Below, piece by piece: positions 37,088 through 57,913 of a stretch of 64,000 bases of DNA. Below the pieces are notes generated by a model, which made no database searches, was not told where the DNA came from, and saw nothing but the letters and a program-made list of their open reading frames with translations. The translations under genes were made by a program, and so were the position numbers. The first letter of the stretch is position 1. Every line of letters begins with the position of its first letter. Source of the DNA: an uncultured Rhodobacter sp. (lineage in GTDB: Bacteria; Pseudomonadota; Alphaproteobacteria; Rhodobacterales; Rhodobacteraceae); NCBI GenBank assembly GCA_945952585.1, contig CAMFII010000001.1, forward strand, positions 310,001 to 374,000, given 5' to 3'.

Positions 37088-38221
37088 TTACTTCGACAGC
37101 CAGTTCTGGAAGGCGACTTCGACCGCATCCTGGTTGTCAGCCCACCATTCGATGTTGTTCACCAGATAATTCTTCTGGTTCGCGGGGTTGGTGGGCATAA
37201 AGGGCGCCATCTCGATGCCAAGCGTTGCGTGCTTTGACACCAGCGGCTGCGACGAGGCGCGGGCCGGACCGTAGGAGATGTACTTGGCCTGATCCGCCAG
37301 ACGCTGCGTGTCGGTGGCGAAGTTCAGGAAGTGCATCACGCGGTTCTTCTGGGCTTCGTCCAGGCCCTTGGGAACGACCCAACCGTCGAAGTCGAACACT
37401 TCCCAGTCCCACAGCATGGCGATGGGCTGCTTCTGCTCGACGATGGCCGAGAACAGGCGGCCGTTATAGGTCGAGCCCATCACGACTTCGCCATCGGCCA
37501 GAAGCTGCGGGGTTTCGGCGCCGGCAGACCACCACACGACATGATCCTTGATCGTGTCGAGCTTGGCCAGGGCGCGGTCCACGCCCTCTTTCGTGGAAAG
37601 CACGGTGTAAAGTTCGTCCTTCGAAACGCCGTCACACAGGAGAGCCCATTCGAGGTTCTTCTTCGGGCGCTTTTCCAGCGCGCGCATTCCGGGGAAGGTC
37701 TGGAGGTCGAAGATCGCGCACAGGTCTTCCGGAACCTTGCCGTTCCATTCCTTCACGTCGGTTCGATAGCCGAAGGTGGTCGAGAACACGATCTGCGGCA
37801 CGAAGCATTCGTTGATCATCGCCGCGCCGAAGTCCTTCGAGGCGGGGGTGCCATCGGGTGCCGCCGCCAGAACCTTGTCGAAGTCGATCTCTTCGGCCAG
37901 GCCCTCGTCGCAGGCGCGCTGGCTGTCGGGGCCTTCGACATCGACCAGGCTGTAGGTCATGTTGCCGGCTTCCGAGGCGGCGCGCATCTTGGCGATGGCT
38001 TCGTTCGAGCCTTCGTCCCAGGTGATCTTGACGCCGGTCAACTTGGCATAGGGTTCGGCATAGGCCGCGACCTGGGAGGCCTGATAGGCGCCGCCCCAGG
38101 ACATCAGGACCATCGAGTCAGAGCAGTTGTCGCAGGGCGGAAGGTCCTCGGCAAACGCGGCGCCGGCGCCAAGCGGCAGCATCGCCAGCGCGGTTGCGCT
38201 GAGTAGGGATTTGAGTGTCAT
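37088..38221 (-). CDS. Pot-type ABC transporter substrate-binding protein (putative creatine/guanidino ligand)
   Basis: A 377-residue periplasmic binding protein of the PotD/spermidine-putrescine family. Its signal peptide ends in AGAAFA (about residue 24), and the mature strand SMVLMSWGGAYQASQVAAYA matches the family. The mature N-terminus carries PPCDNCSD, a close cysteine pair. I start at ATG 38221, which leaves seven bases to CGGGAG; an ATG two codons upstream is only one base from that site. It follows the ATPase and precedes the permeases. The ligand is inferred from the creatinase neighbour. Confidence 0.9.
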   Translation of the reverse strand: MTLKSLLSATALAMLPLGAGAAFAEDLPPCDNCSDSMVLMSWGGAYQASQVAAYAEPYAKLTGVKITWDEGSNEAIAKMRAASEAGNMTYSLVDVEGPDSQRACDEGLAEEIDFDKVLAAAPDGTPASKDFGAAMINECFVPQIVFSTTFGYRTDVKEWNGKVPEDLCAIFDLQTFPGMRALEKRPKKNLEWALLCDGVSKDELYTVLSTKEGVDRALAKLDTIKDHVVWWSAGAETPQLLADGEVVMGSTYNGRLFSAIVEQKQPIAMLWDWEVFDFDGWVVPKGLDEAQKNRVMHFLNFATDTQRLADQAKYISYGPARASSQPLVSKHATLGIEMAPFMPTNPANQKNYLVNNIEWWADNQDAVEVAFQNWLSK

Positions 38222-38272
38222 TGTCATACTCCCGGTTGTTATTCTGGTTCTTTTTTTTGCCCTTGTGGGCAC

Positions 38273-39379
38273 CTACGGCGCGTCGAGCGCGCGGCAGTCT
38301 TCTGGCAGCCAGCCGATCTCGATCGTCTGGCCGGGCTGATGGCGGACCTGGTCGGGGGCGTTCCGGGTCTTGATGACGAAATCATCATGTCCCGCCACCT
38401 TCAGCCGTGTGCGGAAGATGTCACCCATATAGATGAATTCCAGCACTTCGGCCTTGAGCGTATGGGCGCCCGGACTCAAGCGGGCCTTGTTGGTCTCGAC
38501 CCGTTCCGGACGGATGGAAACCTGGGTGCGGTCGCCGACCTTGGAGACGTTCACCGGCTTCGCGTCGATGAAATCGCCCGAGTCGAGCCGCACCACGCAG
38601 ATGCCGTCCTTCATCTCGGTCACGGTGCCCATCAGGCGGTTATTCTCGCCGATGAACTGCGCGACGAAGCTGTTGACCGGCGCCTCGTACAGCTCGGACG
38701 GCGGGGCAAGCTGCTGGATGCGGCCGTCGTTGAACACCGCGACCCGGTCGGACATCGTCAGCGCCTCGGTCTGGTCATGGGTGACATAGACCGTGGTGAT
38801 GCCCAACTCGTGGGCAAGCCGCGTGATCTCGAACTGCATGTGTTCGCGAAGCTGCTTGTCCAGGGCGCCAAGGGGTTCGTCCATCAGGACAAGTTCCGGC
38901 TCGAACACCAGCGCGCGGGCCAATGCGACACGCTGCTGCTGACCGCCCGAAAGCTGCGACGGGCGGCGTCCGGCAAAGGCACCCATCTGCACCATGTCGA
39001 GCGCGCGCTTGACCTTCTGGTCGCGCGTCGACTTGTCAAGCTTGCGCACCTCAAGCGGGAAGGCGAGGTTTTCGGCAACCGTCATGTGAGGGAACAGCGC
39101 GTAGTTCTGGAACACCATCCCGATGCCGCGCTTGTGGGGGGAGACGGTGTTGATGTTGCGCCCGTTCAGGCGGATCTCGCCATGGGTTGCCGTTTCGAAC
39201 CCGGCGAGCATCATCAGACAGGTTGTCTTGCCCGAACCAGACGGCCCGAGCATCGTAAGAAACTCTCCCTTCGGCAGGGAGAGGTTCAGATCTTTCACGA
39301 CGAGCGTCACACCGTCGTAGCTTTTTTGAACCCGGTCGAACACGACGAACGCATCGTTCGTCATCGCCCCATCAGCCAT
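38273..39379 (-). CDS. PotA-like ABC transporter ATP-binding protein
   Basis: A 368-residue ATPase with Walker A GPSGSGKTT (about 45-53), signature QLSGGQQQRVALARAL, Walker B LVLMDEPLGALDKQLREHM and a C-terminal TOBE domain from about 280. It is the spermidine/putrescine type. It lies 80 bases after the creatinase stop; that gap holds only a small six-base-pair GCCGGG/CCCGGC stem (39414-39435) with no T-tract, so read-through from creatinase is plausible. Confidence 0.93.
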   Translation of the reverse strand: MADGAMTNDAFVVFDRVQKSYDGVTLVVKDLNLSLPKGEFLTMLGPSGSGKTTCLMMLAGFETATHGEIRLNGRNINTVSPHKRGIGMVFQNYALFPHMTVAENLAFPLEVRKLDKSTRDQKVKRALDMVQMGAFAGRRPSQLSGGQQQRVALARALVFEPELVLMDEPLGALDKQLREHMQFEITRLAHELGITTVYVTHDQTEALTMSDRVAVFNDGRIQQLAPPSELYEAPVNSFVAQFIGENNRLMGTVTEMKDGICVVRLDSGDFIDAKPVNVSKVGDRTQVSIRPERVETNKARLSPGAHTLKAEVLEFIYMGDIFRTRLKVAGHDDFVIKTRNAPDQVRHQPGQTIEIGWLPEDCRALDAP

Positions 39380-39459
39380 ACGCGCATCCCCGTTGCGGTT
39401 GTCCCCTTATCGAGCCGGGTAGAGATCCGCCCGGCCGCCGCCTGTTATCAAGCGAGGGT

Positions 39460-40680
39460 TCATTTCTTGAATGGCAGGATAAGATGATCGGGTCCATAGG
39501 GAAATCCGGTGATGTTCCGATTGCCGTCCTCGGTGATGACGAGGATGTCGTGCTCGCGGTAGCCGCCGGCGCCCGGAAGATGGTTGGGGATGGTGATCAT
39601 CGGCTCCATCGACACGACCATTCCCGGCTCCAGCACCGTCTCGCAATCCTCGCGCAGTTCCAGGCCTGCCTCGCGGCCGTAGTAGTGGCAAAGCACACCG
39701 AAGGAGTGGCCGTAGCCGAAGCTCCTGTATTGCAACAGATTTTCTGCCGCGTACATCTCGTTCAATTCGCGCGCCACATCGCTGCAGCGGTTGCCGGGGA
39801 CCAGGAGTTCCTTGCCGCGGTCATGCACCCGGCAGTTGAACTCCCACAGGCGCAGGTGCTCGTCGGTCGGCTGGCCCGCGAACATCGTGCGTTCGAGCGC
39901 GACGTAGTAGCCCGCGACCATCGGAAAACAGTTCAGCGACAGGATGTCACCCTGCTCGATCCTGCGGCTTGTGACCGGATTATGGGCACCGTCGGTATTG
40001 ATGCCCGACTGGAACCAGGTCCAGGTGTCCAGCAATTCGCCATGCGGCCAGGTCTTGGCAATCTCGCGCACCATCGTCGCCGTGGAATGCAGCGCAACCT
40101 CGTGTTCCGGCGTGCCGACAGTCGCGGCCTCGGCGCAGGCGGCCCCGCCAATATCGGCGATGCGGGTCATCTTCTCGATATGCGCAATCTCTGCCGCCGA
40201 CTTGATCATGCGCTGGCGCATCGCGCCCTGGGCGATGTCGACGAACTCCACCCTGGGGAATTCCGACTTGAGCAGGGCGAGGGTGTCGATGCTGATGTGG
40301 TCGAACTCGATTCCCAGCCGGCGCACGCCCGGGATCAGGCCTCGGACAGCATGGAAATAGTTGTCCTTCTGCCAGTCGGTATAGGTGATGTTGCGCCCGC
40401 CGAAGGTCCGACGCCAGGGCTGCCCCCCGTCGATGCCCGCGCTGATCGAGGTGGTCTTGTCGTGATCGACGACGAGGCCATAGCGCCGCCCGAAGTAGCA
40501 ATACAGGAAGTCACTGTAATAATTGATGTTATGGTACGAGGTGAACAGCGCCGCGTCGATCCCGCTTTCGGCCATATGCCGACGAATCGCTGTCAGCCGC
40601 CGCTCCATCTCACTGGCAGGAAAGGTTGGCGTGACGGGTGTTCCGTTGCCCACATAATCCTGAAGCCGTTCCCGCTGCAT
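39460..40680 (-). CDS. Creatinase (creatine amidinohydrolase)
   Basis: A 406-residue pita-bread-fold enzyme that hydrolyses creatine to sarcosine and urea. It matches Pseudomonas putida creatinase closely by eye, with a constant +1 numbering shift at the active site: His233 in INTDGAHNPVT, Glu263 in YVALERT, Arg336 in YYGREAGL, Glu359 in VVSMEPM, plus Phe63 and Arg65 in CYFGRR from the partner subunit. Stretches such as FTSYHNINYYSDFLYC and LDTWTWFQSGINTDGAHNP set it apart from the metal-dependent Xaa-Pro peptidases of the same fold. It is the first gene of the leftward Pot-type transporter set and divergent from a LysR gene. Confidence 0.95.
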   Translation of the reverse strand: MQRERLQDYVGNGTPVTPTFPASEMERRLTAIRRHMAESGIDAALFTSYHNINYYSDFLYCYFGRRYGLVVDHDKTTSISAGIDGGQPWRRTFGGRNITYTDWQKDNYFHAVRGLIPGVRRLGIEFDHISIDTLALLKSEFPRVEFVDIAQGAMRQRMIKSAAEIAHIEKMTRIADIGGAACAEAATVGTPEHEVALHSTATMVREIAKTWPHGELLDTWTWFQSGINTDGAHNPVTSRRIEQGDILSLNCFPMVAGYYVALERTMFAGQPTDEHLRLWEFNCRVHDRGKELLVPGNRCSDVARELNEMYAAENLLQYRSFGYGHSFGVLCHYYGREAGLELREDCETVLEPGMVVSMEPMITIPNHLPGAGGYREHDILVITEDGNRNITGFPYGPDHLILPFKK

Positions 40681-40750
40681 CTGCCCTCTCCCGAAACGCG
40701 ATTTCCAAGGTCGAACCTGCGGCCAGTCGCGTGACTTGTCAAAAGACCGA

Positions 40751-40770
40751 TTCTCATGTCGAGATGAGAA
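40751..40770. promoter_or_regulatory. Perfect palindrome, candidate operator of the creatinase-divergent LysR regulator
   Basis: TTCTCAT (40751-40757) and ATGAGAA (40764-40770) are perfect inverted halves around six bases. The site lies 18 bases upstream of the LysR start and about 70 bases upstream of the creatinase start, which suits autoregulation plus control of the creatinase operon. A TTGACA on the leftward strand (40742-40737) is close by, but its -10 partner is weak. Confidence 0.6.
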
Positions 40771-40788
40771 AAACTAATTGGATGCCGC

Positions 40789-41682
40789 ATGACTCAAGCT
40801 CCGCTCAATGCGCTCCGGGCGTTTGACGCCGTCGTCAGGGCCGGTTCGTTCAAGGCGGCGGCCGAGATGCTGTTCGTCACGCAATCGGCCGTAAGCCATC
40901 AGGTCCGCCATCTCGAGGACTGGCTCGGTCGGCCGCTTTTCGATCGCTCGGGTCCACGTCCCCGGCTGCTGCCCGAAGGCGAGGAACTGGCTCGCACCCT
41001 CGCCCTGTCGTTCGACGGCATCGACGCCGCCTGCCTGCGCCTGCGGCGCGCGTCCGAAGAACCTCGGCTGGTTATCGCGGCAATCCCCTCGGTTGCGCTT
41101 TGCTGGCTCATTCCGAGGCTTGCGGGATTTCGGGCTGCCCATCCGGACGTTGCAACCCGGATCGTCTATGCCTTCCACCGGCAGGAGATCGACTTTTCCG
41201 ATGTCGATCTTGCGTTCATCTACGCCCCCGAAAGTGCGGTTGCCGAGGGTCACCATCAGGCAGAACTGTTTTTCCCGGGCACAAGCGTGCCGGTCAGCAG
41301 CCCGACGCTTGCGACAGGTCCGGTCGAACCTGACGCCATGGCGCGCATGACGCTTCTGCACGACACCGACGGGGCCGAATGGCGGGACTGGTTCCGTCAA
41401 GCGGGCGTCGAGGGCATCGATCTGCCCGAGGGGCCGGCGTTCCAGGATTTCAACCTGCTGCGCGCGGCGGCGCTGGCCGGACAGGGCGTGGCGCTTTGCC
41501 CCTATGCCATGATCCGCGACGACCTCCTGGCCGGACGGCTCAGCCAGCTATCGTCAGTCAGCGCCAATCCAGCGAGCGGCTACTATCTGGTCCGTTCCTC
41601 TTCCTCCGGCCGGCACGACGCAGCAATTCGGGCATTCCGCGACTGGGCCTTCGCCGAACGGGAGAACAGCCCGAGCGCTTAA
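40789..41682 (+). CDS. GcvA-like LysR-family transcriptional regulator
   Basis: A 297-residue LysR protein of the GcvA subgroup. The HTH region LNALRAFDAVVRAGSFKAA and TQSAVSHQVRHLEDWLGRPL sit in residues 5-60. The effector domain follows, with WRDWFRQAG and GQGVALCPYAMIRDDL. It is divergent from creatinase across a perfect palindrome, so it probably controls creatine use, with creatine or sarcosine as possible effectors. It ends 64 bases before the convergent MFS stop; nothing notable lies in that gap. Confidence 0.92.
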   Translation: MTQAPLNALRAFDAVVRAGSFKAAAEMLFVTQSAVSHQVRHLEDWLGRPLFDRSGPRPRLLPEGEELARTLALSFDGIDAACLRLRRASEEPRLVIAAIPSVALCWLIPRLAGFRAAHPDVATRIVYAFHRQEIDFSDVDLAFIYAPESAVAEGHHQAELFFPGTSVPVSSPTLATGPVEPDAMARMTLLHDTDGAEWRDWFRQAGVEGIDLPEGPAFQDFNLLRAAALAGQGVALCPYAMIRDDLLAGRLSQLSSVSANPASGYYLVRSSSSGRHDAAIRAFRDWAFAERENSPSA

Positions 41683-41746: not shown

Positions 41747-43051
41747 TCAGGCCTTCTGTTTCCTGGGCTCGTGGACCGGAAGCATGAACAGGAACCCGAG
41801 CACGAAGGACACCGCGACAACCGCGATCCCGGCCTTCTGGTCCTGGGTCGCGAGGGTGACCCATCCAACCAGCGCCGACCCCAACGGCCCGGTGGCGCGT
41901 CCGGCCAGCGCATAGAGGCCGAAGTATTTCGTGACCATGTCGGGCGGGGCAAGGCGCGACATCAGGCTGCGCCCCGACGCCTGCACCGGACCGAAGAAGA
42001 CCCCGAGGATGCAGGACGCGATCCAGAATGCCCGCTGCGTGTCGAGGAAAGCGATTGAAAGCGACACGGCGGCAAGGGCGACGATCGACACCATGACCAC
42101 GGGCTTGGCTCCGATCCAGTCATCGATCCAGCCGAACACAAAGGCGCCGGTTCCGGCGGCAACGTAAATCGAGACCCCGAAGAACAGCATCTGCGTATCG
42201 CTGAACCCGAAGGCGCCCTTGGCCACGAGAGGCCCGAAGATGAAGATCGAATTCACCCCGTCGGCGAAGAACATGTGGGCCAGCAGCAGCCATGCGATCG
42301 AGGGCGTCTTCGGCAGTTTGCGGATCGTCTGCCAGATGTCCGCCAGGCCTTTCCTTACGATCGTGGCGGCACTTTCCGGCGAGGGCCGCTCTTTCGGGCC
42401 GAACAGGACCAGCGGCGCACCGAAGACGAGGAACCACAGGGCGCTGACCGGGCTGGACAGGCGCGATGGCTCGGCCTGTGCCGGATCAAGGCCCAGAAGC
42501 GGCGGATCGGGGATCACCAGCAGCACATAAACGAGCGCGAGCGATGCCAGACCGCCAAAATAGCCGGCAGCCCAGCCCATCCCCGACACGCGCCCGCGCT
42601 TTTCGTCCGGCGCCACGTCGGTCAGAAGCGCGTTGTAGAAGACATATCCCAGTTCGAACCCGGCATTCGATACGGCAAGCAGGACCAAGGCGAGTGTAAG
42701 CGACGACGGCTCCGGCCGGACCCACCACATGGCGCCGGTCGCGACGATGGCGACCAGAGAGCAGACGGCCAGCCAGGTCCGCCTGCGCCCGCTCTGGTCT
42801 GCCAACGCCCCAAGCATCGGGCTGAGAATAGCAACGCAGATCGCCGAGATCGAAATCGCGAATCCCCATTTCGCCTGCCCATGCACCGGATCGTCTGCAA
42901 CGCGGGAAAGGAAGTAGGGCGCAAAGACGAAAGACAGGACAACAGCGCCGTAGGCGGAGTTTGCCCAGTCATACATGCACCAGTAAAGAACCTGCCGGCG
43001 GCTGCCCGTCACCGGCCCGGCCTTCGCGGAAAGCGTGGATACCTCTGTCAT
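41747..43051 (-). CDS. UMF1/Atg22-type MFS transporter
   Basis: A 434-residue membrane protein with about twelve hydrophobic segments. The opening VLYWCMYDWANSAYGAVVLS is the signature of the UMF1/Atg22-like branch of the major facilitator superfamily, and later segments include GMGWAAGYFGGLASLALVYV. The eukaryotic relative exports amino acids from the vacuole; bacterial members have no settled substrate. Its ATG (43051) is one base after the stop of the acyl-ACP synthetase/acyltransferase gene, so the two are translationally coupled. By analogy with LplT beside Aas in enterobacteria it might flip lysophospholipid or fatty acid; that is inference. Confidence 0.87.
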   Translation of the reverse strand: MTEVSTLSAKAGPVTGSRRQVLYWCMYDWANSAYGAVVLSFVFAPYFLSRVADDPVHGQAKWGFAISISAICVAILSPMLGALADQSGRRRTWLAVCSLVAIVATGAMWWVRPEPSSLTLALVLLAVSNAGFELGYVFYNALLTDVAPDEKRGRVSGMGWAAGYFGGLASLALVYVLLVIPDPPLLGLDPAQAEPSRLSSPVSALWFLVFGAPLVLFGPKERPSPESAATIVRKGLADIWQTIRKLPKTPSIAWLLLAHMFFADGVNSIFIFGPLVAKGAFGFSDTQMLFFGVSIYVAAGTGAFVFGWIDDWIGAKPVVMVSIVALAAVSLSIAFLDTQRAFWIASCILGVFFGPVQASGRSLMSRLAPPDMVTKYFGLYALAGRATGPLGSALVGWVTLATQDQKAGIAVVAVSFVLGFLFMLPVHEPRKQKA

Positions 43052-43052
43052 C

Positions 43053-45689
43053 TCAGCCCACCTCGACGCCGTTCTGCCGGGCCAGCTCGATCAGTCGATC
43101 GCGCAGGGCATCGGCGATGGCTTCTGCCGGACTGGTCACGTCCCCCTTGTCCGCAAGCAGGTCCTGCGCGCTGCAGGCCGGTCCGAAGGCCACGTGAACC
43201 GGGCGGAACCGCGGCCACTTCAGCGTTCTCGGCCACGCCTCGAAGGTTCCCTTGACGAAGACCGGCAAGGCGGGCGCGTCCGCGCCGAGCATCACATGGC
43301 CAATGCCGGCATGGAACGGCAGGAGGTGCCCGTCACCGGACCGCCAGCCTTCGGGGAACCAGACGACGACATTGCCGGCCGACAGCGCCGACAGGGCCAT
43401 CCCGACCGCCGATGCCGGGGACGCATCATCGACCGGATACAGCCGTAGCGCACGCGCGCCCCTGGGCTTCAACCAGCCCCCCTTCACGCGCGACTGGGCT
43501 GCGGCCCACACCGTCCGCCGCCGGACTGCCGGAGGCAAGGCGGCTGCGACCGACGAGGGGTCCATCAGGCTGACATGGTTCGGGCAAAGCACGAAGGGAC
43601 CGGATTGCGGCAGGTTTTCAAGACCCGAAACCTTCAGCGAGAAACCAAGGCGCAGTGTGGCGCGGTTGAGCGCGAAGACGATCTCTCCGAAGATGCGCTC
43701 GACGACCGAAAGGGGGGCGAACCAATGCGCCTTCTCGGCAGCCGCCCTTGCCTCATCAAGTTCCTGCAGCTTAGGGTTCGCCGCTTTCTCGCTGACTTTC
43801 GCGAGGAGGTCGCGCACCGTGCCGATCGCTGCGATGTCCGTCGCGTCCAGCCGCGCGCCGGTCGCCTCCTCGATTGCAACCGACAGGGTCATCCAGGCAA
43901 AGGAGTCCAGGCCAAGGTCCAGCTGCATATGGCTGTCCAGCGAAAGCCCCTGGCCGTGATCCCGTTTCAGCATCTCCCACACCTTGTCGCGCGGCGGGCC
44001 GGCAAGCCAGGATCGGTCGGCTTCGGAAAGCTCGGCCGTCGGACCATCGCGGCGCCCTGTCAGCGCCCGCTCGTAGAGCGGCGGCAAGGCGAAGCGGCGC
44101 AGCTTGCCAAGGCGGGTGCGGGGCAAGGGGTCGCGGGACAGGGCAAAGCCGGAAAGCCGCCAGGTCGAGGGCAGAGAGGTCGCAACCGAGCCGAGCCCGA
44201 CCCGGACAGCATCATAGGGGTCGATCGTTTCGAACTTGCCGACCTCGGCCATGTTCGGAACCACCAGCGCGACAAGATCGCCGTTCCGCTCCAGAACGGC
44301 GATCTCTCCGATCTGGGGGATGGCAAGGTAGGCGCGTTCGACGTCTTCGGGGAAGACCTTGTCCCCGCCGGCCAGAACGATGCGCTCCTTTATCCGGCCG
44401 GTGACGAACAGGAAGCCGTCCTCGTCGATACGCCCCAGATCACCGGTCCGGAAGAATCCGTCGGGCGTGAATGCGGTCCTGTTCGCCTCGGGGTTGTTGA
44501 GGTACCCCGAAAACAGCGACGGCCCCTTGAGGAGGATTTCGCCAACCCCGTCCGCGGCGGGGGCGTCAATGCGCAATTCGCAGCCGTCGAGCGGTTTTCC
44601 GACCGATCCGGCGCGCTTCGCCGAAATCGGTCCGCAGACCGAGGCCGCCGTTTCCGCCAGACCATAGCCCGAGCGGACATCCCACCCGAAGGCCTCAAGC
44701 GTTTCGGTCGTTTCGGCGGTCAGGTTCGCACCACCCGAAATCAGCATGCGCAAGTCGCGCCCGATCGTGCGACGCAAGGGGGCAAGCAACTGGTGCCCGA
44801 TCCTGCCGCCGGTCAGCCGGCGCAGCCTGATCGACAGAGCAGTGAGCATCCCGACAAGACGGGCCGCCAGTTTTCCTTTGGATGCAGCACGCGACTGGAT
44901 GCCGAGAAGCATCGCGTCGTACAGCCTCGGCACTCCGACAATCAGGGTCGGAGGACAAAGCTTCAGCGCCTCGGCGATGTGCGGCCCCGACGGACTTTCC
45001 GGCAGGATGATCCTTGCGCCCAGCGTGACCGAAGTCAGCACGGCGGTGATCCAGGGGTAGACGTGATGCATCGGCAGGGGCATCAGCACGCGGTCCGAGG
45101 CATCCAGCAATCCGCTCCGGCTGATGGTGCGGGCGTTCCAGCCGAGATTGCCCTGAGTCAGATAGAAGCTCTTGGGCGTTCCCGTGGTCCCAGAGGTGCG
45201 GAAAAGCGCCAGCGGCGCGCTGTCTTCCAGTTCAGGAAGCTCGGGGGCGTCCGCAACCGGAGTGATCCTGTCAATCTCGAGTGTCGGGATCCGCCCTTCG
45301 AACTCCTGGCGCGCCGCGGCGTCGATAAGGACGAGTTTCGCCTTGGACGCGGTGGCCTGCTCAAGCGACTCCTTCGCGGAGATCAGGGAATCGAGCGGGG
45401 CAAGGATGATGCCCTTCAGATGGCAGGCCAGGCCAGCCGCGATCCAGCCTGCCGAATTGGGCGCCCAGATGGCCACCACATCGCCCTTCGAGACACCCCT
45501 CGTCTCCAGCGCCCGACAGGCGCCGTAGATCAACTGGACGAAATCGCTGCCGCTGAACGTGCGCGCCTCACCTTTGGTCACCGTTGTCAGGAAAGGTGCA
45601 CTGCCGAGACGGCTCAAGGTCGTGACAGCATCTGCAGCCTGCCAAACCGAGGCAGAGCCGCTTTCAGGGCCCTTGGACTGATCATCCAT
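43053..45689 (-). CDS. Acyl-CoA/ACP synthetase - acyl carrier - PlsC acyltransferase fusion
   Basis: An 878-residue three-domain protein. Residues 1 to about 555 form an AMP-forming acyl ligase (LFRTSGTTGTPKSF near 162-175, GYGLAETAASVCG, FRTGDLGRIDEDGF). Residues about 565-640 form an acyl carrier domain with the phosphopantetheine serine in LGLDSFAWM (Ser596). Residues about 685-878 form a PlsC-type acyltransferase with NHVSLMD (His705) and FPEGWRS (778-784). This would activate a fatty acid, hold it on the internal carrier and esterify a lysophospholipid. E. coli Aas has the order PlsC-ligase and no carrier domain. ATG at 45689 is seven bases from GGGGAGG; an ATG two codons earlier touches that site. 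Confidence 0.9.
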   Translation of the reverse strand: MDDQSKGPESGSASVWQAADAVTTLSRLGSAPFLTTVTKGEARTFSGSDFVQLIYGACRALETRGVSKGDVVAIWAPNSAGWIAAGLACHLKGIILAPLDSLISAKESLEQATASKAKLVLIDAAARQEFEGRIPTLEIDRITPVADAPELPELEDSAPLALFRTSGTTGTPKSFYLTQGNLGWNARTISRSGLLDASDRVLMPLPMHHVYPWITAVLTSVTLGARIILPESPSGPHIAEALKLCPPTLIVGVPRLYDAMLLGIQSRAASKGKLAARLVGMLTALSIRLRRLTGGRIGHQLLAPLRRTIGRDLRMLISGGANLTAETTETLEAFGWDVRSGYGLAETAASVCGPISAKRAGSVGKPLDGCELRIDAPAADGVGEILLKGPSLFSGYLNNPEANRTAFTPDGFFRTGDLGRIDEDGFLFVTGRIKERIVLAGGDKVFPEDVERAYLAIPQIGEIAVLERNGDLVALVVPNMAEVGKFETIDPYDAVRVGLGSVATSLPSTWRLSGFALSRDPLPRTRLGKLRRFALPPLYERALTGRRDGPTAELSEADRSWLAGPPRDKVWEMLKRDHGQGLSLDSHMQLDLGLDSFAWMTLSVAIEEATGARLDATDIAAIGTVRDLLAKVSEKAANPKLQELDEARAAAEKAHWFAPLSVVERIFGEIVFALNRATLRLGFSLKVSGLENLPQSGPFVLCPNHVSLMDPSSVAAALPPAVRRRTVWAAAQSRVKGGWLKPRGARALRLYPVDDASPASAVGMALSALSAGNVVVWFPEGWRSGDGHLLPFHAGIGHVMLGADAPALPVFVKGTFEAWPRTLKWPRFRPVHVAFGPACSAQDLLADKGDVTSPAEAIADALRDRLIELARQNGVEVG

Positions 45690-45741
45690 CTTCATTCCTC
45701 CCCGACTGTTGCCAGTGTAAGCGTGTTGCGCCTCAGGCCAA

Positions 45742-45755
45742 CTGATCCCGATCAA
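45742..45755. promoter_or_regulatory. FNR/FnrL-type box in the acyltransferase-hupT divergent gap
   Basis: CTGATCCCGATCAA matches the FNR consensus TTGAT-N4-ATCAA at nine of ten defined bases. On the leftward strand TACACT (45719-45714) is a four-of-six -10 that predicts a start near 45707. The box centre (45748.5) is then at about -41.5, the class II FNR activator position. This fits control of the acyl ligase-acyltransferase gene best. A rightward -10 at the equivalent distance toward hupT is poor. Confidence 0.65.
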
Positions 45756-45849
45756 GTCCAGGCCGCCTGACGGATCATGCTTTCCCCGGGGCACACATGC
45801 TGGACGGCGGCTGCGGAAGGGGCGTAGATTTCCGATCGAGGACTTCAAC

Positions 45850-47181
45850 ATGCCAAGACCATCGCCCGATCTCGTCCCAGAGCGGCCCGAACTGTCGGAT
45901 GCCGTCTGGCTGGACGTGCTTTCGGCGGTGGACCGGACCTATGCCGATCTGGTCGATTACCAAGAACGTCTGGAAAGCCAGAACGCCGAGCTTGAGGCGA
46001 TGCGGCGTTTCCTTGGTTCGATCCTGGCATCGACCTCGGACGTGCTGATCGTCACGAACCGCCAGGGATTGGTCGAAGAGATGAGCGCCTCGCTCGCGAC
46101 GCTCACGGGCCGCCCGTTGGCCAGCCTGCAGGGGGGCCCCGTGACCGGCCTGTTCGTCCAGGAGCATGTCCCGGCGCTGGACGCTGCGATCCAGACCGTC
46201 GCCCGAGAGAGACGGCCGGTGATGATCGAAGCGGCACTTGCCACCGGGTCCGGCCCCTCGGAACTCGAACTGTCGCTTGCTCCCCGTTTCGACGAACGGG
46301 GCCGCGTGGCGGGGCTGGTTCTGACTGGGCGGCCGGTCGGCGAATTGCGCCGCACCTATGCCGCGCTTGAACGGAGCCACGCCGAACTCATGGCGGCGCA
46401 GGCCCAGTTGGTACGCAACGAGAAACTCGCCTCGCTTGGCCGTTTGCTGGCCGGCGTCGCGCATGAGCTGAACAACCCGATCAGCTTTGTCTATGCCAAC
46501 GCCCACGCGCTGGAGCGCTATTCGGGCAAGTTCCAGACCTATTTCGACCGCGTGCAGGCCGGGGCGACGCGCGAGGAACTGGTGCGGCTGCGCGAGGAGC
46601 TGAAGCTCGACCGCGAAGTGAAGAACCTCCGCGACGCCGTGCAGGGCGCGCGCGAGGGGGCGGAGCGCGTGCGCGATATCGTCGAGGACCTGCGGCGGCT
46701 GTCGGCCGACGGATCGGGCGAGTCCGCGTCCTTCGACCTGATGGAGACGGCAAAGATCGCTGCAAGCTGGGTTCTGCGGGGCGCGCGCAGCCCGGTGCAG
46801 GTCCGGTTCGAGGGGGCGGACAGCGTCATGGCATTCGGCCGGCGCGGCCATATCCAGCAGGTGATCATGAACCTGGTGCAGAACGCCGTCGATGCGCTCG
46901 ATGGCCGGCCGGACGGTTTGGTGAGAGTAACAGCAAAGGACGAGGGCGAGCGGGTTTCGCTGTCGGTCCATGACAACGGTCCGGGGGTCCCCCAGGATGC
47001 AGAAGGCGCGATCTTCGATCCGTTCTTCACCACCAAGGCCGTCGGCAAGGGCACCGGCCTCGGCCTGTCGATCAGCCACAAGATCGTCGAGGAACATGGC
47101 GGAGAACTGCGGCTTCTTCCTGCCGGCCCCGGTGGCGGCGCCACCTTCCGCTTCGATTTGCCGAAGGGAACTGCATCGTGA
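45850..47181 (+). CDS. hupT: HupT sensor histidine kinase
   Basis: A 443-residue soluble histidine kinase of the hydrogen-sensing system. A PAS-like region occupies about residues 50-165. The H-box is AGVAHELNNPISF with His205, the N-box HIQQVIMNLVQNAVDAL, and the G/F boxes HDNGPGV and FDPFFTTKAVGKGTGLGLS. No membrane segments are seen, as in Rhodobacter capsulatus HupT. There, without H2, HupT phosphorylates HupR and so keeps hydrogenase off, and HupUV modulates it. Its stop overlaps the hupU GTG start. Confidence 0.94.
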   Translation: MPRPSPDLVPERPELSDAVWLDVLSAVDRTYADLVDYQERLESQNAELEAMRRFLGSILASTSDVLIVTNRQGLVEEMSASLATLTGRPLASLQGGPVTGLFVQEHVPALDAAIQTVARERRPVMIEAALATGSGPSELELSLAPRFDERGRVAGLVLTGRPVGELRRTYAALERSHAELMAAQAQLVRNEKLASLGRLLAGVAHELNNPISFVYANAHALERYSGKFQTYFDRVQAGATREELVRLREELKLDREVKNLRDAVQGAREGAERVRDIVEDLRRLSADGSGESASFDLMETAKIAASWVLRGARSPVQVRFEGADSVMAFGRRGHIQQVIMNLVQNAVDALDGRPDGLVRVTAKDEGERVSLSVHDNGPGVPQDAEGAIFDPFFTTKAVGKGTGLGLSISHKIVEEHGGELRLLPAGPGGGATFRFDLPKGTAS

Positions 47182-48170
47182 ACCTTCTCTGGCTGCAATC
47201 GGCCGGCTGCGGCGGCTGCACGATGTCGCTTCTCTGCGCGGAAGACCCGAATGTCTTCGATCTTCTCGACGGGGCGGGCATCTCCGTCCTCTGGCACCCT
47301 GCCCTGTCGGTCGAAAGCGGGCAGGAGGTGCTGCACCTGCTGCAGGCGGTGGAGCGAGGCGAGATCGCGCTCGACATCCTGTGCGTCGAAGGGTCGATCC
47401 TGCGCGGACCGAAGGGCACGGGGAAATTCCAGATGCTGGGCGGGACCGGGCGGTCGATGCTCGACTGGGTGCGCAGCCTTGCCCCGCGCGCGCTCCATGT
47501 CGTGGCAGTGGGAACCTGCGCGACCTATGGCGGCATCACCTCGGCGGGTGGCAACCCGGCTGATGCGGTTGGCCTGCAATACGAAGGGTCGCATCGCGGC
47601 GGGGCGCTTGCCGCGGACTTCGTTTCGAAATCCGGCCTGCCGGTCATCAATGTCGCCGGGTGCCCGACGCATCCCGACTGGGTGACCGAGACCCTCCTGC
47701 TGCTGAAGGATGGCGGGCTGGACGCAGAAGCGCTCGACGGCTTCGGGCGGCCGCGCTTCTATGCCGATCACCTAGTCCACCATGCCTGCCCGAAGAACGA
47801 GTTCTACGAATACAAGGCCAGCGCGCGGCATCTGTCGCAAGCGGGCTGCCTGATGGAGAACCTCGGCTGCGTCGGCACGCAGGCGGTGGGCGACTGCAAC
47901 ATCCGGCCCTGGAACGGCGGCGGCAGCTGCACGCGCGGCGGCTACCCCTGCATTGCCTGCACCGCGCCGGAATTCGAGGAACCGCGGCATCCCTTTACCG
48001 AAACGCCCAAGATCGCCGGCATTCCGGTTGGCCTTCCGTCGGACATGCCGAAGGCGTGGTTCATGGCGCTTGCCTCACTCTCAAAGGCGGCGACGCCCGA
48101 CCGCATCGCCCGTAACGCGCTGTCAGATCGGATTGCCGTGCCGCCGCGGCTGAGGACGCCGCGGCGATGA
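47178..48170 (+). CDS. hupU: Sensor [NiFe]-hydrogenase small subunit HupU
   Basis: A 330-residue small subunit of the regulatory hydrogenase. It lacks the Tat signal seen on HupS and begins directly MNLLWLQSAGCGGCTMSLL, with Cys11 and Cys14 of the proximal Fe-S cluster; further ligands are in GTCATYGG, AGCPTHPDW and HHACPKNEFYE, and the cysteine-rich GSCTRGGYPCIAC. With HupV it detects H2 in the cytoplasm and signals to HupT. Start GTG 47178 overlaps the hupT stop, and its end overlaps hupV. Confidence 0.94.
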   Translation: MNLLWLQSAGCGGCTMSLLCAEDPNVFDLLDGAGISVLWHPALSVESGQEVLHLLQAVERGEIALDILCVEGSILRGPKGTGKFQMLGGTGRSMLDWVRSLAPRALHVVAVGTCATYGGITSAGGNPADAVGLQYEGSHRGGALAADFVSKSGLPVINVAGCPTHPDWVTETLLLLKDGGLDAEALDGFGRPRFYADHLVHHACPKNEFYEYKASARHLSQAGCLMENLGCVGTQAVGDCNIRPWNGGGSCTRGGYPCIACTAPEFEEPRHPFTETPKIAGIPVGLPSDMPKAWFMALASLSKAATPDRIARNALSDRIAVPPRLRTPRR

Positions 48171-49594
48171 GCGGCTCGACCCTGCTTGTCGGCCCCTTCA
48201 ACCGGGTGGAGGGCGACCTCGAGGTCAAGCTGACGCTGGAGGATGGGCGCGTGGCGGCGGCGCATGTGAACGCGCCCCTGTTCCGCGGATTCGAACAGAT
48301 GCTGCTCGGCAAGGATCCGCGCGATGCGCTGACGATCACGCCGCGCATCTGCGGGATCTGCTCGATCAGCCAGTCGGCGGCGGCGGCACGGGCACTGGCG
48401 GCGGCACAGGGCCTGACGCCGACGCCGCAGGGCGACGCGATGGCGGCGCTGATCCATGCGGTCGAGAATGCGGCGGACCACCTGACCCATTTCCACCTGT
48501 TCTTCATGCCCGATTTCACCCGTCCAGCCTATGCCGGGCGCGCGTGGCACGAGCGGGCTGTCGCGCGCTTCACTCCGATGCAGGGATCGGCCCAACGGGC
48601 GGCGGTCGAGGCGCGGGCAGAACTGATGCACATCCTCGGGCTGATGGCCGGCAAGTGGCCTCACACGCTTGCGCTCCAGCCCGGGGGCGTGACGCGCGCG
48701 CCCACCGCCCGCGACCGGGTGCGGATCATGGCGACGCTTTCAGCCTTCCGCCGCTATCTCGAGACGACGGTCTTTGATGGGCCACTGGAGGCTTTCGTCG
48801 CGCTGACCGATGCCGACGCCCTGCTCGGCTGGGAAGCAGGCGATGCCGGGCTGTTCCTCCAGATCGCCCGTGACACGGGTCTGGACGGGCTAGGGGTTGG
48901 GTCAGGCCGCTACCTGAGCTTTGGGGCCTATCCCATGGGCGACGGCCATGCCTTTCGGCAGGGCGTCTGGGACGGTGGGCCATCCCCGCTCGACCTTGCT
49001 GGCATGACCGAGGATCTGAGCCATTCCTGGATGCTCGGCCCCTCGGCGCATCCGTCGCAAGGCGTGACCCGGCCGGACGAGGACATGCGTGCCTCGGCCT
49101 ACAGCTGGTGCAAGGCGCCGCGTCTTGGCGGGCTGACCTTTGAAACCGGGGCGCTGGCCCGACAGGTGGTCGATGGTCATCCGCTCGCGCGGGACCTGGC
49201 CCGGCAAGGCGGGGTGCTGGCGCGCGTCGCGGCACGGCTGCTGGAACTGGCGCGAACGCAGATCCTGATGGAGGATCTGGCGGCGGCCATCGACCCTTCC
49301 GCGACCTTCATGCTGCAGGACGAAACCCCGGACGATGGCATGGGGGTGGGGCTGGTCGAGGCAGCGCGGGGCGCGCTTGGCCACTGGCTGCGGATCGAGC
49401 GGGGACGGATTGCCTCCTACCAGATCGTCGCGCCGACGACATGGAACTTCTCGCCGCGCGACACTTCGGGCCAGCCCGGCCCGCTGGAGGCGGCGCTGGT
49501 CGGGGCCGAGGTGCGCGACGGCGAGGACACGCCAGTCACTGTCCAGCATATCGTGCGCAGCTTCGATCCCTGCATGGTCTGCACGGTTCACTGA
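48167..49594 (+). CDS. hupV: Sensor [NiFe]-hydrogenase large subunit HupV
   Basis: A 475-residue large subunit. The Ni-binding cysteine pairs are RICGICS (Cys62, Cys65) and DPCMVCTVH (Cys469, Cys472). The protein ends exactly at that histidine, with no C-terminal extension. Regulatory hydrogenases of the HupUV/HoxBC type share this trait and so need no maturation peptidase, unlike HupL. It overlaps hupU by four bases and hypF by one (TGATG). Confidence 0.95.
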   Translation: MSGSTLLVGPFNRVEGDLEVKLTLEDGRVAAAHVNAPLFRGFEQMLLGKDPRDALTITPRICGICSISQSAAAARALAAAQGLTPTPQGDAMAALIHAVENAADHLTHFHLFFMPDFTRPAYAGRAWHERAVARFTPMQGSAQRAAVEARAELMHILGLMAGKWPHTLALQPGGVTRAPTARDRVRIMATLSAFRRYLETTVFDGPLEAFVALTDADALLGWEAGDAGLFLQIARDTGLDGLGVGSGRYLSFGAYPMGDGHAFRQGVWDGGPSPLDLAGMTEDLSHSWMLGPSAHPSQGVTRPDEDMRASAYSWCKAPRLGGLTFETGALARQVVDGHPLARDLARQGGVLARVAARLLELARTQILMEDLAAAIDPSATFMLQDETPDDGMGVGLVEAARGALGHWLRIERGRIASYQIVAPTTWNFSPRDTSGQPGPLEAALVGAEVRDGEDTPVTVQHIVRSFDPCMVCTVH

Positions 49595-51822
49595 TGCAGG
49601 ACGTGCGAATCCGTGTGCGGGGCCAGGTGCAGGGCGTCGGTTTCCGCCCCTTCGTCTGGCAGATCGCGCGCGAGGCGGGCGGCAAGGGCGAGGTGCTGAA
49701 CGATCCCGAGGGCGTTCTCATCCACATCCGTCTGGCCGATCCCGCGACCTTCGTCGCGGCCTTGCGGGATCGCGCGCCACCCTTGGCCCGGATCGACGCG
49801 ATCGAGGTCGGGGACCACCTGTTCGCGGTCGCGCCGCAGGATTTCATCATCGCCGCGAGCCGGGGCCGGGGCGCCGAGACCCGGGTGACGCCGGATGCCG
49901 CGACCTGCCCGGCCTGTGCCGCCGAGATCCGCGACCCGGACCAGCGGCGCTTTGGCTACGCCTTCACCAACTGCACCCATTGCGGGCCGCGCTTCACCAT
50001 CCTGACCGGCCTGCCATATGACCGAGCGCAGACGACCATGGCCCGCTTTCCGCTCTGTCCGGACTGCCGCGCCGAATACGAGAACCCTGCCGACCGACGC
50101 TTTCACGCCCAGCCGGTCGCCTGTCCCGCCTGCGGGCCGCGCCTGTGGCTGGAGGAGGCGGGAGCAGAGATACCGGGTGATGCAATCGGCCTTGCGGTCG
50201 AGCGCCTGAAGGCGGGGGCGATCCAGGCCATCAAGGGGCTGGGCGGGTTCCACCTCGCCTGCGACGCGCGGTCGGCGACGGCGATTGCCGAACTGCGCCG
50301 ACGCAAGCGCCGCCCCGCCAAGCCGTTGGCGCTGATGGCAACGCCCCAGATGATCGCGCGACATGCGCGGCTCTCTGCGCCCGAAGGCGAGTTGCTCGCC
50401 GATCCCGCCGCGCCGATCGTGCTTCTGCCCAAGGACGGCGAGCCGCTCCCGGACGATCTCGCGCCGGGGCTCGACGTGATCGGCTGGATGCTGCCCTACA
50501 CCCCTCTTCACCACCTGCTGCTTGATGCGTTCGGCGGACCGCTCGTGATGACGTCGGGCAACCTCTCGGGCGAGCCACAGGCGATCGGCAACGCCGAAGC
50601 GCGGCAGAAGCTGTCGGACTTTGCCGATGCCTTCCTGATGCATGACCGCGACATCGCGCGGCGGCTGGATGACTCGGTCGAACGGATCACGCCAGCCGGC
50701 CCGATGGTTCTCAGGCGCGGGCGCGGGCGCGTTCCGGGCACCCTGCCCCTGCCCCCCGGCTTCGAGGGGGCGAGACAGGTGCTGGCCTTTGGCGGACAGA
50801 TGAAATCGGCGATCTGCCTTATCAAGAACGGGCAGGCGATGCTGTCGCAGCACTTGGGCGATCTCGACGACGCCCTGACGCGGGAGGAATACGGCAAGGC
50901 GCTGGCCGATTGCGCCGCGCTGTTCGATCACCGCGCCGAGTTCGGCGCCTGCGACCTTCATCCGGGCTATGCCTCGACCCGTGTGGCAGAGGGGGCTGGC
51001 CTGCCGCTTGTCCGGGTGCAGCACCATCATGCGCATCTCGCGAGTTGCCTTGGCGATGCGATGTGGCCGCTGGAGGGTGGCCCCATCGCAGGGATCATCC
51101 TCGACGGAACGGGCTACGGCAGCGACGGCACTGTCTGGGGCGGCGAATTGCTGCTAGGCGACTATCGCGGGTTCGAGCGGATCGCGCATTTGCGTCCCGC
51201 TCCCCTGCCGGGGGGCGACGCGGCGAATGTCGAGCCCTGGCGGAATGCGATCATGCGGCTGGATCAGGCGGGATTGGCCGAGGTCGCCAGCGGGCTTTTC
51301 GCGCGCAAGCCGCTGGCGACGATCCGCGCGGCGGCGGCAGCGGGGGTCAACGCGCCGCTGTCCTCCTCCGCCGGGCGGCTGTTCGATGCGGTGGCGGCGC
51401 TGCTCGGGATCTGTCCCGACCGGCAGTCCTACGAGGGCGAAGCGGCCATGCGGCTGGAGGCGTTGGCCGATGTCGCCGCGCCGCCGCTACCCTTTGCGGT
51501 CGGGAGCGGCCTCATCGACCCCTCTCCCATGATCGCGGCGGTTGTCGACGGGCTGCGGGAGGGTGTACGGCCGGGCCTGCTGGCGGGCGGTTTCCAGCGG
51601 GGGCTCGCCCGCGCCTTCGCCCTTCCGGCGCGGGAGGCCGTCCGGTCTGGGCGGGCAAGAGCGGTCGCACTGTCGGGCGGGTGCTTCCAGAACCCGGCGT
51701 TGCTTGAGGCTGTCCTGGCCGAGTTGCAGGGAGTTCCGGTACTGGTCCATGCCCGCGTTCCAGCGAACGATGGCGGCCTCGCCTTGGGGCAGGCCCTTAT
51801 TGCGGCGGCGGAAAGCATCTGA
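49594..51822 (+). CDS. hypF: Carbamoyltransferase HypF
   Basis: A 742-residue enzyme that makes the cyanide ligands of the [NiFe] centre from carbamoyl phosphate. In order: an acylphosphatase domain with GQVQGVGFRPFVWQI (about 9-23); two zinc-finger-like repeats (CPACAAE...CTHCG and CPDCRAE...CPACG, about 100-180); a YrdC-like domain to about 380 (LKAGAIQAIKGLGGFHLACD, TSGNLSGEP); and a Kae1-like C-terminal domain with HHHAHLASCLGD, DGTGYGSDGTVWGGE and LSGGCFQNPAL. ATG at 49594 is preferred over longer readings because it overlaps the hupV stop and gives the family N-terminus. Confidence 0.95.
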   Translation: MQDVRIRVRGQVQGVGFRPFVWQIAREAGGKGEVLNDPEGVLIHIRLADPATFVAALRDRAPPLARIDAIEVGDHLFAVAPQDFIIAASRGRGAETRVTPDAATCPACAAEIRDPDQRRFGYAFTNCTHCGPRFTILTGLPYDRAQTTMARFPLCPDCRAEYENPADRRFHAQPVACPACGPRLWLEEAGAEIPGDAIGLAVERLKAGAIQAIKGLGGFHLACDARSATAIAELRRRKRRPAKPLALMATPQMIARHARLSAPEGELLADPAAPIVLLPKDGEPLPDDLAPGLDVIGWMLPYTPLHHLLLDAFGGPLVMTSGNLSGEPQAIGNAEARQKLSDFADAFLMHDRDIARRLDDSVERITPAGPMVLRRGRGRVPGTLPLPPGFEGARQVLAFGGQMKSAICLIKNGQAMLSQHLGDLDDALTREEYGKALADCAALFDHRAEFGACDLHPGYASTRVAEGAGLPLVRVQHHHAHLASCLGDAMWPLEGGPIAGIILDGTGYGSDGTVWGGELLLGDYRGFERIAHLRPAPLPGGDAANVEPWRNAIMRLDQAGLAEVASGLFARKPLATIRAAAAAGVNAPLSSSAGRLFDAVAALLGICPDRQSYEGEAAMRLEALADVAAPPLPFAVGSGLIDPSPMIAAVVDGLREGVRPGLLAGGFQRGLARAFALPAREAVRSGRARAVALSGGCFQNPALLEAVLAELQGVPVLVHARVPANDGGLALGQALIAAAESI

Positions 51823-51882
51823 CCAGTCCGTGTCGCGCCCTGACAACTCCGCTTTCGCCGAAGACAGTCGAATTGGACGGAA

Positions 51883-51893
51883 TTGCCCTCCAA
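51883..51893. promoter_or_regulatory. HupR-binding site upstream of hupS
   Basis: TTGCCCTCCAA is an exact TTG-N5-CAA palindrome, the element bound by HupR upstream of hupS in Rhodobacter capsulatus. It is 131 bases upstream of the hupS start, in the only sizeable gap (51823-52023) before the structural genes, so it should be the enhancer of the hupSLEC promoter. Confidence 0.75.
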
Positions 51894-52023
51894 CCGTCTG
51901 ACACGAAAATGAAATAAACTCTCCTGGTCTCAGATCAGGTTCCGGTTTGATCGCCATCCCTCCTGTGCATCCTTTTGCATACCGAGGTGCCGGCTTGTCC
52001 GGTGCGACCCAGGGAGGAGAGCC
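51894..52023 (+). promoter_or_regulatory. hupS promoter region
   Basis: This stretch has an AT-rich patch (about 51903-51920) that could bend DNA between the HupR site and the promoter, a role IHF plays in Rhodobacter capsulatus; I found no good IHF consensus. TTGATCGCCATCCC (51947-51960) is a partial FNR-like site. No clear -35/-10 or -24/-12 pair was found. The ribosome binding site GGGAGGAG lies just before the TTG start at 52024. Confidence 0.45.
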
Positions 52024-53109
52024 TTGTCCGAGATCGAAACCTTCTACGACGTGATGCGTCGGCAGGGGATCACCCGCCGCAGCTTCATGAAATACTGCTC
52101 GCTGACGGCAGCCGCGCTCGGGCTCGGCCCGGCCTATGTGCCGAAGATCGCCGAAGCGATGGAGACGAAGCCGCGCACGCCGGTGATCTGGATCCATGGT
52201 CTGGAATGCACCTGCTGTTCGGAAAGCTTCATCCGCTCGGCCCACCCGCTGGCCAAGGATGTCGTGCTGTCGATGATCAGCCTCGACTATGACGACACGC
52301 TGATGGCTGCGGCCGGGCATCAGGCCGAAGCGGCGCTGATGGACACGATCGAGAAGTACAAGGGCAACTACATCCTCGCGGTCGAAGGGAACCCGCCGCT
52401 GAACGAGGACGGGATGTATTGCATCGTCGGAGGCAAACCCTTCGTCGAGCAGCTGAAGATGGCGGCCGAGAACGCCAAGGCGATCATCAGCTGGGGCGCC
52501 TGCGCCTCGTACGGCTGCGTGCAGGCGGCAAGCCCGAACCCGACTCGCGCCACACCCGTGCATAAGGTCATCCTCGACAAGCCGATCATCAAGGTCCCGG
52601 GCTGCCCGCCCATCGCCGAGGTGATGACCGGCGTCATCACCTACATGCTGACCTTCGACCGGATGCCCGAGCTTGATCGCCAGGGCCGGCCGCAGATGTT
52701 CTACAGCCAGCGCATCCACGACAAATGCTATCGCCGCCCGCATTTCGATGCCGGCCAGTTCGTCGAGCACTGGGACGACGAAAACGCGCGCAAGGGCTAT
52801 TGCCTGTACAAGATGGGTTGCAAGGGCCCGACGACCTACAACGCCTGTTCGACCATCATGTGGAACGATGGCACCTCCTTCCCGATCAAGTCGGGCCATG
52901 GCTGCATCGGCTGCTCGGAGGAAGGGTTCTGGGATCAGGGCGGTTTCTACAACCGGCTGACGAGCATCAACCAGTTCGGGATCGAAGAGAATGCCGACAA
53001 GGTCGGCATGGTCGCAGCGGGTGTCGTGGCCGGCGGGGTCGCGGTCCATGCCGCGGTTTCGGCGCTGAAGCGCGCCCAGAAGAAATCGCAGGACAAGGTG
53101 GAGGACTGA
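52024..53109 (+). CDS. hupS: Uptake [NiFe]-hydrogenase small subunit
   Basis: A 361-residue small subunit of the membrane-bound H2-uptake enzyme, read from a TTG start with GGGAGGAG upstream. The N-terminus carries a twin-arginine signal, [10 protein letters not shown], and the first mature cluster ligands are in [17 protein letters not shown]. Other Fe-S cysteine regions are [27 protein letters not shown] and [16 protein letters not shown]-terminal hydrophobic segment (about 325-345) anchors it to the membrane. Electrons from H2 pass through its three clusters to cytochrome b HupC. Confidence 0.96.
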
Positions 53110-53112
53110 GCC

Positions 53113-54906
<1,794 letters not shown>

Positions 54907-54916
54907 GGAGGCCCCG

Positions 54917-55498: not shown

Positions 55499-55501
55499 GC
55501 C

Positions 55502-56281: not shown

Positions 56282-56305
56282 TCCGCGAGTCACCTTGCAT
56301 CTGCC

Positions 56306-56337
56306 ATGGGCGGGCTCCGGCTCGCCCATTTTCTTTC
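56306..56337 (+). terminator. Rho-independent terminator after hupC
   Basis: ATGGGCGGGC (56306-56315) pairs with GCTCGCCCAT (56320-56329), including one G-U, around a UCCG tetraloop of the stable UNCG type. It is followed by TTTTCTTT. This is a textbook intrinsic terminator 24 bases after the hupC stop and should end the hupSLEC transcript. Confidence 0.85.
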
Positions 56338-56553
56338 CGGACAGCGCCTTTCCTGATTTGCAGCACATGTGGTTAGCTTCTTATCATGCCTATCTAACTA
56401 AGATCTGATAAAATTGCCTGAAACCAAAGTATTACGCTGATTTCTGTCCTTGCGAAGCTTCGGCGAAATCCTATCTCCCGGCTGAACTGAAAAGACTATG
56501 TTCACACGAGGGGCGCCAGTGCAAAGCGGCTGGCCAGTCAGGGAGGGCTGCCC
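56338..56553 (+). promoter_or_regulatory. AT-rich region upstream of hupD, likely promoter of the accessory operon
   Basis: This 216-base stretch is clearly more AT-rich than its surroundings, especially about 56380-56450. It contains a ten-base palindrome CGAAGCTTCG (56453-56462). It follows a terminator, so a promoter for hupDFGHJK-hypAB-hupR-hypCD is expected here. I found no convincing -35/-10 pair, FNR box or TTG-N5-CAA site. Confidence 0.5.
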
Positions 56554-57482: not shown

Positions 57483-57486
57483 TCCC

Positions 57487-57906: not shown

Positions 57907-57913
57907 GGCGTCC

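Follow-up and report, generated by a model that had tools for sequence, protein, structure and literature searches.

A predicted FnrL-controlled acyl-salvage module: a ligase-carrier-PlsC fusion coupled to a UMF1/Atg22-type transporter in an uncultured Rhodobacter

We analyzed a 64,000-nucleotide window of DNA from an uncultured Rhodobacter sp. (GenBank assembly GCA_945952585.1, contig CAMFII010000001.1, positions 310,001–374,000); unless stated otherwise, coordinates refer to this window. Two adjoining genes on its reverse strand encode a fusion of an acyl-activating ligase, an acyl carrier protein (ACP) domain and a PlsC-type acyltransferase, followed by a UMF1/Atg22-type transporter of the major facilitator superfamily (MFS). 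Based on the sequence we read the pair as a self-contained acyl-salvage module under FnrL control, with a probability of roughly one half. The strongest new fact is that the FNR site of the coupled pair is conserved across different genomic surroundings. In the proposed mechanism, FnrL would bind at −41.5 under low oxygen and, presumably as an activator rather than a repressor, switch on a single transcript. The ligase domain would adenylate a free fatty acid and hand it to the fusion's own phosphopantetheinyl carrier domain, which would take the place of the separate cellular ACP needed by Escherichia coli Aas. The PlsC domain would then transfer the acyl group to an acceptor, presumably the free hydroxyl of a lysolipid, at the cytoplasmic face of the inner membrane. 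The coupled MFS transporter would move the lipid substrate, either a lysophospholipid or a different lipid that carries a single acyl chain, across this membrane.

The fusion gene (43053–45689) encodes 878 amino acids, as judged by its Pfam domains, the open frame, the ribosome-binding site and the N-terminus of a relative. The frame is open up to 45851. The ATG at 45689 is the likely start, with the ATG at 45695 as a possible alternative. We favor the former because the Shine-Dalgarno sequence GGGGAGG (45697–45703) lies 7 nt upstream of it (1 nt for the ATG at 45695) and because the resulting N-terminus matches the protein start in Tabrizicola rongguiensis (locus L015), a relative at 87% identity. 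From the N- to the C-terminus, Pfam assigns an AMP-binding domain (44499–45572; residues 42–399, E = 7.9e-55), a PP-binding carrier domain (43800–43970; residues 576–632, E = 1.6e-7) and an Acyltransferase domain (43254–43637; residues 687–814, E = 9.2e-19), all above the cut-offs and numbered in the 880-residue form that starts at 45695. The ligase domain keeps the TSGTTG motif and the A10 lysine (K531), the carrier domain contains LGLDSF with the phosphopantetheine serine S598, and the acyltransferase domain contains NHVSLMD (HX4D) and FPEGWRS. The initial annotation, which had delimited the system to 41747–45755 and described a ligase-ACP-PlsC order within one chain, fits these boundaries and domains.

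We inspected the motif columns in 104 fusion sequences, including the window and two pairs of duplicates (L021/L130 and L075/L148). The first threonine of TSGTTG, the A10 lysine and the carrier serine are present in all 104 sequences and the carrier aspartate in 103. The histidine of HX4D and the glutamate of FPEG are each found in 102, with gaps in the other two. Given this conservation of the catalytic residues, the fusion is very likely an active, self-loading acyltransferase. An AlphaFold2 model built on 58 sequences has a mean pLDDT (predicted local distance difference test) of 88 but a pTM (predicted template modeling score) of 0.65, so that the individual domains appear well formed in the model, whereas their mutual placement appears unsure.

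E. coli Aas likewise combines an acyl-activating ligase and PlsC in one chain, and the aas gene overlaps an MFS gene. A domain-by-domain alignment (ligase E = 6e-19, PlsC E = 6e-10, ~26–27% identity) matches the two proteins in swapped order: in Aas, PlsC precedes the ligase and there is no internal carrier. This bears out the contrast in domain order and carrier drawn earlier. Against the NCBIfam models for acyl-[ACP]--phospholipid O-acyltransferase the fusion reaches 125.5 of 1349 and 151.9 of 1221 bits needed and is thus below both cut-offs. The gene of the E. coli MFS protein LplT also adjoins an acyltransferase-ligase gene. LplT, however, shows no significant BLASTP similarity to the window transporter (best E = 4.7), which is of the UMF1/Atg22 type, and an LplT query found no match at E ≤ 1e-3 in the window genome in a search run without a positive control. 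Passages of a published source describe that LplT and Aas interact in a physical complex and share one operon in many Gram-negatives, and that LplT-Aas fusions occur in some bacteria and are said to be uncharacterised (PMC11416262). Such tandem-fused proteins resemble the window pair in their set of activities and close linkage. In the window, by contrast, the transporter forms its own polypeptide and comes from a different family, and the enzyme has an additional carrier domain. Because Aas aligns in swapped order and LplT does not align with the window transporter, while the LplT-Aas operon and complex provide a precedent, the pair in the window probably acts in the manner of Aas-LplT without belonging to either family. 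In our searches of open-licence PMC full texts we found no work recognizable as dealing with the ligase-ACP-PlsC fusion or with a lipid role of bacterial UMF1/Atg22 proteins.

The acceptor might instead be 1-acyl-glycerol-3-phosphate. In that case the fusion would salvage free fatty acids into phosphatidic acid as PlsC does, and the MFS transporter would import fatty acid or lysolipid or serve another nutrient. A PDB search with the PlsC stretch (E ≤ 1) returned only 5kym, a 1-acyl-sn-glycerol-3-phosphate acyltransferase (E = 2.8e-8), together with one chance-level match (E = 0.61). The arginine and serine of FPEGxRS, which have a phosphate-binding role, are kept in 94 and 96 of the 104 fusions, respectively, and most fusions have no adjoining MFS gene, which would also suit this alternative. 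We nevertheless regard it as unlikely, as the genome already has seven other PlsC-domain stretches, and the pairing with an MFS gene in several lineages suggests a transported substrate. None of the seven is in a frame longer than 480 amino acids, which leaves no room for a ligase as well, so none of them can be an Aas.

The MFS gene (41747–43051, 434 amino acids) starts one nucleotide after the fusion stop codon, with the junction TGA-G-ATG. The coupling of the two genes and the placement of the transporter in the UMF1/Atg22 branch, both proposed at the outset, are confirmed: the protein matches Pfam MFS_1 and scores 143.7 bits against ATG22 (PF11700), over the gathering score of 24.1. Its AlphaFold model (pLDDT 86.4) shows an MFS fold, and a fold search could not tell carriers of lipids (SPNS2, MFSD2A) apart from those of sugars, urate or drugs. 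The same junction occurs in T. rongguiensis; stop and start codons touch in L016 and L018 and overlap in L017. Stop and start thus lie within 1 nt of each other or overlap in all five members of what we call the window clade, i.e. the window, Tabrizicola, Actibacterium, a Bauldia metagenome-assembled genome (MAG) and a Hyphomicrobiales MAG.

An FNR/FnrL-like site, TTGATCGGGATCAG, is located upstream of the fusion at 45742–45755 on the reverse strand. It matches the consensus at 9 of 10 positions, in agreement with the near-perfect box of the initial annotation. The candidate −10 hexamer TACACT (45714–45719, 4/6 to TATAAT) begins 22 nt after it and sets the site center at −41.5 from the implied transcription start. 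In class II FNR promoters the site is found at −41.5. At the equivalent spacing T. rongguiensis carries TACGAT. L016, L017 and L018 lack a 4/6 hexamer at exactly this distance from the site; the best ones within 4 nt are 4/6 matches displaced by −3 (second box of L016), −1 (L017) and −2 (L018), and the first box of L016 has no hexamer above 2/6 in this range. The genome encodes an FnrL equivalog (468.5 bits, cut-off 300), in which several cysteines lie close to the N-terminus. Both features by which a member of the FnrL regulon would be recognized from sequence, a site upstream and an FnrL in the genome, are present. As a positive control, a 10/10 site was recovered three bases into the listed ccoN frame, ~300 nt before the ccoN-matching stretch. 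An inverted-repeat search of the promoter yielded only one 79% palindrome (45776–45799).

Four sites of at least 9/10, TTGATCGGGATCAG among them, occur in the 64-kb window, and the 13-mer TTGATNNNNATCA has 44 strand matches in the 3.91-Mb genome, palindromic sites being counted twice. A further 9/10 FNR-like site, TTGATGCGGATCAT, is located at 6429–6442. When the 250-bp upstream region was dinucleotide-shuffled, 2 of 500 shuffles reached 9/10. We therefore do not take the site for a chance match. For a comparison across fusion loci we set each start by homology and scanned 250 bp upstream. This was feasible for 98 of 103 loci: L058 and L085 gave no N-terminal match, the upstream stretch was too short in L028, L070 and L137, and of the duplicates L130 (identical to L021) had been removed beforehand while the pair L075/L148 was retained. 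A site of at least 9/10 precedes the fusion in all five members of the window clade versus 3 of the 93 other loci (L029, L039, L142; one-sided Fisher test, 8e-7). L016 contains two 10/10 sites, and for each clade member 0–2 of 500 shuffles reach its own score. Since the window shares its box with L015, to which it is 87% identical, and since L016 and L018 have sister fusions, the five sites amount to about three to four independent cases.

The gene upstream of the fusion is a HupT-like kinase in the window, a divergent frame of 475 amino acids in L015, a PGA_cap protein in L017 and DUF2585 in L018; none was seen in L016. In L017 and L018, then, the box accompanies the fusion even though hupT is not the neighbor. 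This bears on the idea that the site serves the divergent hupT-hupUV-hypF genes, with the fusion and the transporter as bystanders. The hupT start at 45850 is ~101 bp from the site center, and hupUV- and hypF-like genes come next. With sites upstream of the fusion in L017 and L018 despite their different neighbors, and with the window site at −41.5 from a 4/6 −10 hexamer that faces the fusion, we consider this explanation very improbable. The site may, however, control both directions.

The fusion is patchily distributed. Counting the genome of the window in each case, it is present (E ≤ 1e-60) in 3 of 295 genomes of the family, 2 of 7 in the genus and 20 of 385 Alphaproteobacteria. A contig scan with two peptide patterns found 191 encoding stretches, and the best 80 of these, which we used, come from Alpha-, Beta-, Gamma- and 'Delta'proteobacteria, Rubrobacter, Chloroflexota, Nitrospira, Verrucomicrobia, Planctomycetota and others. 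Enzymes of this type thus occur widely but unevenly over the phyla, and they mostly stand alone. An MFS gene follows the fusion directly in all three positive family genomes, among them G253 (L013), and in the genus relative. In 9 of the 80 loci (L015–L018, L047, L054, L056, L086 and L093, the last a fragment at a contig end) it is the next gene downstream in the same orientation; 76 of the 80 extend at least 300 nt past the fusion gene. Of 22 loci of the class, one (L147) has it directly downstream, and two (L131, L140) have it upstream, separated from the fusion by a single gene. The initial annotation had proposed co-occurrence beyond this strain as a check. Pairing is indeed seen in all five clade members and in others, but within the family it is rare (3 of 295 genomes). 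Overall, the observation of the initial annotation holds, and its interpretation is supported in part.

At a threshold of E ≤ 1e-82, 18 of the 20 alphaproteobacterial genomes with the fusion contain this MFS type versus 89 of 365 without it (Fisher test, 3.6e-9, uncorrected for ancestry). We rejected the idea that the transporter type is exclusive to fusion genomes, given these 89 among 107 of 385 positive genomes. For 44 of the 80 loci the genome was searched: 30 have a UMF1 relative (E ≤ 1e-20) and 14 have none at that level. The transporter is therefore a frequent, not an obligatory, partner, as most fusions elsewhere have no such MFS gene beside them. The fusion has a downstream neighbor on the same strand at 40 loci; nine are the MFS genes, and a Pfam scan of 30 (L071 omitted) gave sulfatase as the commonest family (4/30). 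One of the genes downstream of a fusion is sulfatase/lipoteichoic-acid-synthase-like (L030:8956–10920).

The trees point to a partnership that arose or was kept more than once. In a FastTree phylogeny the five clade fusions form one group (100, starred), in which L016 and L018 are sisters. On the fusion tree of 103 rows, the label 'MFS downstream' requires at least six changes, which means that the pairing has either originated or persisted in several lineages. In a first, narrower MFS tree the split between linked and unlinked copies was nearly clean; wider sampling placed the unlinked copy L180 beside linked ones. The second, wider tree (IQ-TREE, 50 rows, with the fragment L093 and the long-branched L062 omitted) places the window-clade transporters in a group of their own (100/100), separate from the common UMF1 type of the family; eight of the nine sampled copies of that type form one group (100/100), and L099, a long branch, stands alone. 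The linked deltaproteobacterial copies form a separate group (100/98), and those of G253 and G446 (C77) a third (100/96) with L180 as its nearest row. A single clade of all linked copies is neither shown nor rejected (approximately unbiased test, p = 0.295). As the linked Rhodobacterales transporters (window, L015, L017) group with those of Hyphomicrobiales rather than with the usual Rhodobacterales UMF1, and as two versions of the pair, the window type and the G253 type, exist in one family, we infer that the fusion and MFS genes move together.

These results also bear on whether the transporter is simply a standard UMF1 permease for nutrients whose gene came to lie next to the fusion gene, with no pathway in common. 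UMF1 relatives are common, being found at E ≤ 1e-20 in 279 of 295 family genomes and thus commonly without the fusion, and in 1 of the 80 loci (L062) such a relative is divergent and upstream of the fusion. The stop/start coupling throughout the clade, the repeated pairing on the tree and the fact that G000, G197 and G253 each have the linked gene in addition to another UMF1 copy make this improbable in our view. In three genomes that contain the fusion, the unlinked MFS copies have large neighbors: those in L235 and L236 adjoin a frame of ~1620 amino acids, and the one in L237 is near a 1433-residue frame with a 309-residue frame between (range over the three loci 1433–1622 amino acids). From their size we take these frames to be perhaps NAD-glutamate dehydrogenase.

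A related arrangement was observed in two other alphaproteobacterial genera. In G446 and G623, a three-gene cassette (L169:4338–9374 and L171:5554–10674) encodes, in this order and on one strand, an MFS transporter, a C45/acid-ceramidase-like hydrolase and the fusion. The cassette transporters are sister to those of the window clade (93/93, not starred). In G446 the hydrolase frame comprises 333 amino acids from a TTG (one codon less from an ATG) and overlaps the end of the MFS gene by 1–4 nt. The protein matches NCBIfam C45_proenzyme (E = 2.5e-20, 73.1 bits) below the 85-bit cut-off as well as acid ceramidase in the PDB (E = 1.9e-5), and it matched no Pfam family. Inspection of the sequence by eye revealed no obvious signal peptide. 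G446 has two ligase-ACP-PlsC genes (L169, L170), each with a UMF1/Atg22-type MFS gene nearby in differing gene orders, and a third MFS gene of this type elsewhere in its genome.

If the hydrolase is an amidase, the transporter of the sister cassette, as distinct from the window, could import an N-acyl lipid, the amidase cut it and the ligase catch the fatty acid. The cassette keeps N-acyl lipids a live alternative for the module: the transporter would move an N-acyl or otherwise unusual lipid, the amidase, where present, would free the fatty acid, and the fusion would re-use the chain or build a lipid for export. The conserved gene order, the C45 and acid ceramidase matches and the sister relationship of the transporters are in favor of this reading. 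Considering that the hydrolase has no Pfam match and that tblastn detected no such hydrolase gene at any other fusion locus searched, window included (flanks of 6 kb or 1.5 kb), we rate it as unlikely. A broader version of the salvage module, in which the UMF1/Atg22-type transporter is a lipid flippase dedicated to the fusion, the pair is a horizontally moving, FnrL-switched module that fulfils the role of Aas-LplT in some bacteria, and the sister form with the acid-ceramidase-like amidase processes N-acyl lipids, is possible but less likely than not. On that version, a class of substrates could be assigned to the Atg22-type transporters of bacteria.

The pair is flanked by two further loci. 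A hydrogenase locus (45850–59514) contains the HupT-like PAS histidine kinase, small and large HupU/HupV-like subunits (47178–48170 and 48167–49594), HypF in the frame 49441–51822, a [NiFe] large subunit (53113–54906) and a HybE-like chaperone (58747–59514); the Hup names are assumed from the gene order. On the other side, 37088–41682 holds an M24/creatinase-N protein (39460–40680), a polyamine-type ATP-binding cassette ATPase (38273–39379) and a divergent GcvA-like LysR regulator, with no NCBIfam match at 1e-40 for 37088–38272. We presume that this could be a cluster for uptake and use of creatine or a related compound.

In the coupled pair, a known route of membrane-lipid repair would take a new form that can be tested. 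If our reading is correct, it would be a second solution to the re-acylation of lysolipids, with a built-in carrier, a transporter of a different family and a direct tie to oxygen sensing. It would make the cargo of bacterial Atg22/UMF1 transporters testable and point to a way in which lysolipids are re-acylated in some bacteria that have no Aas-type protein.

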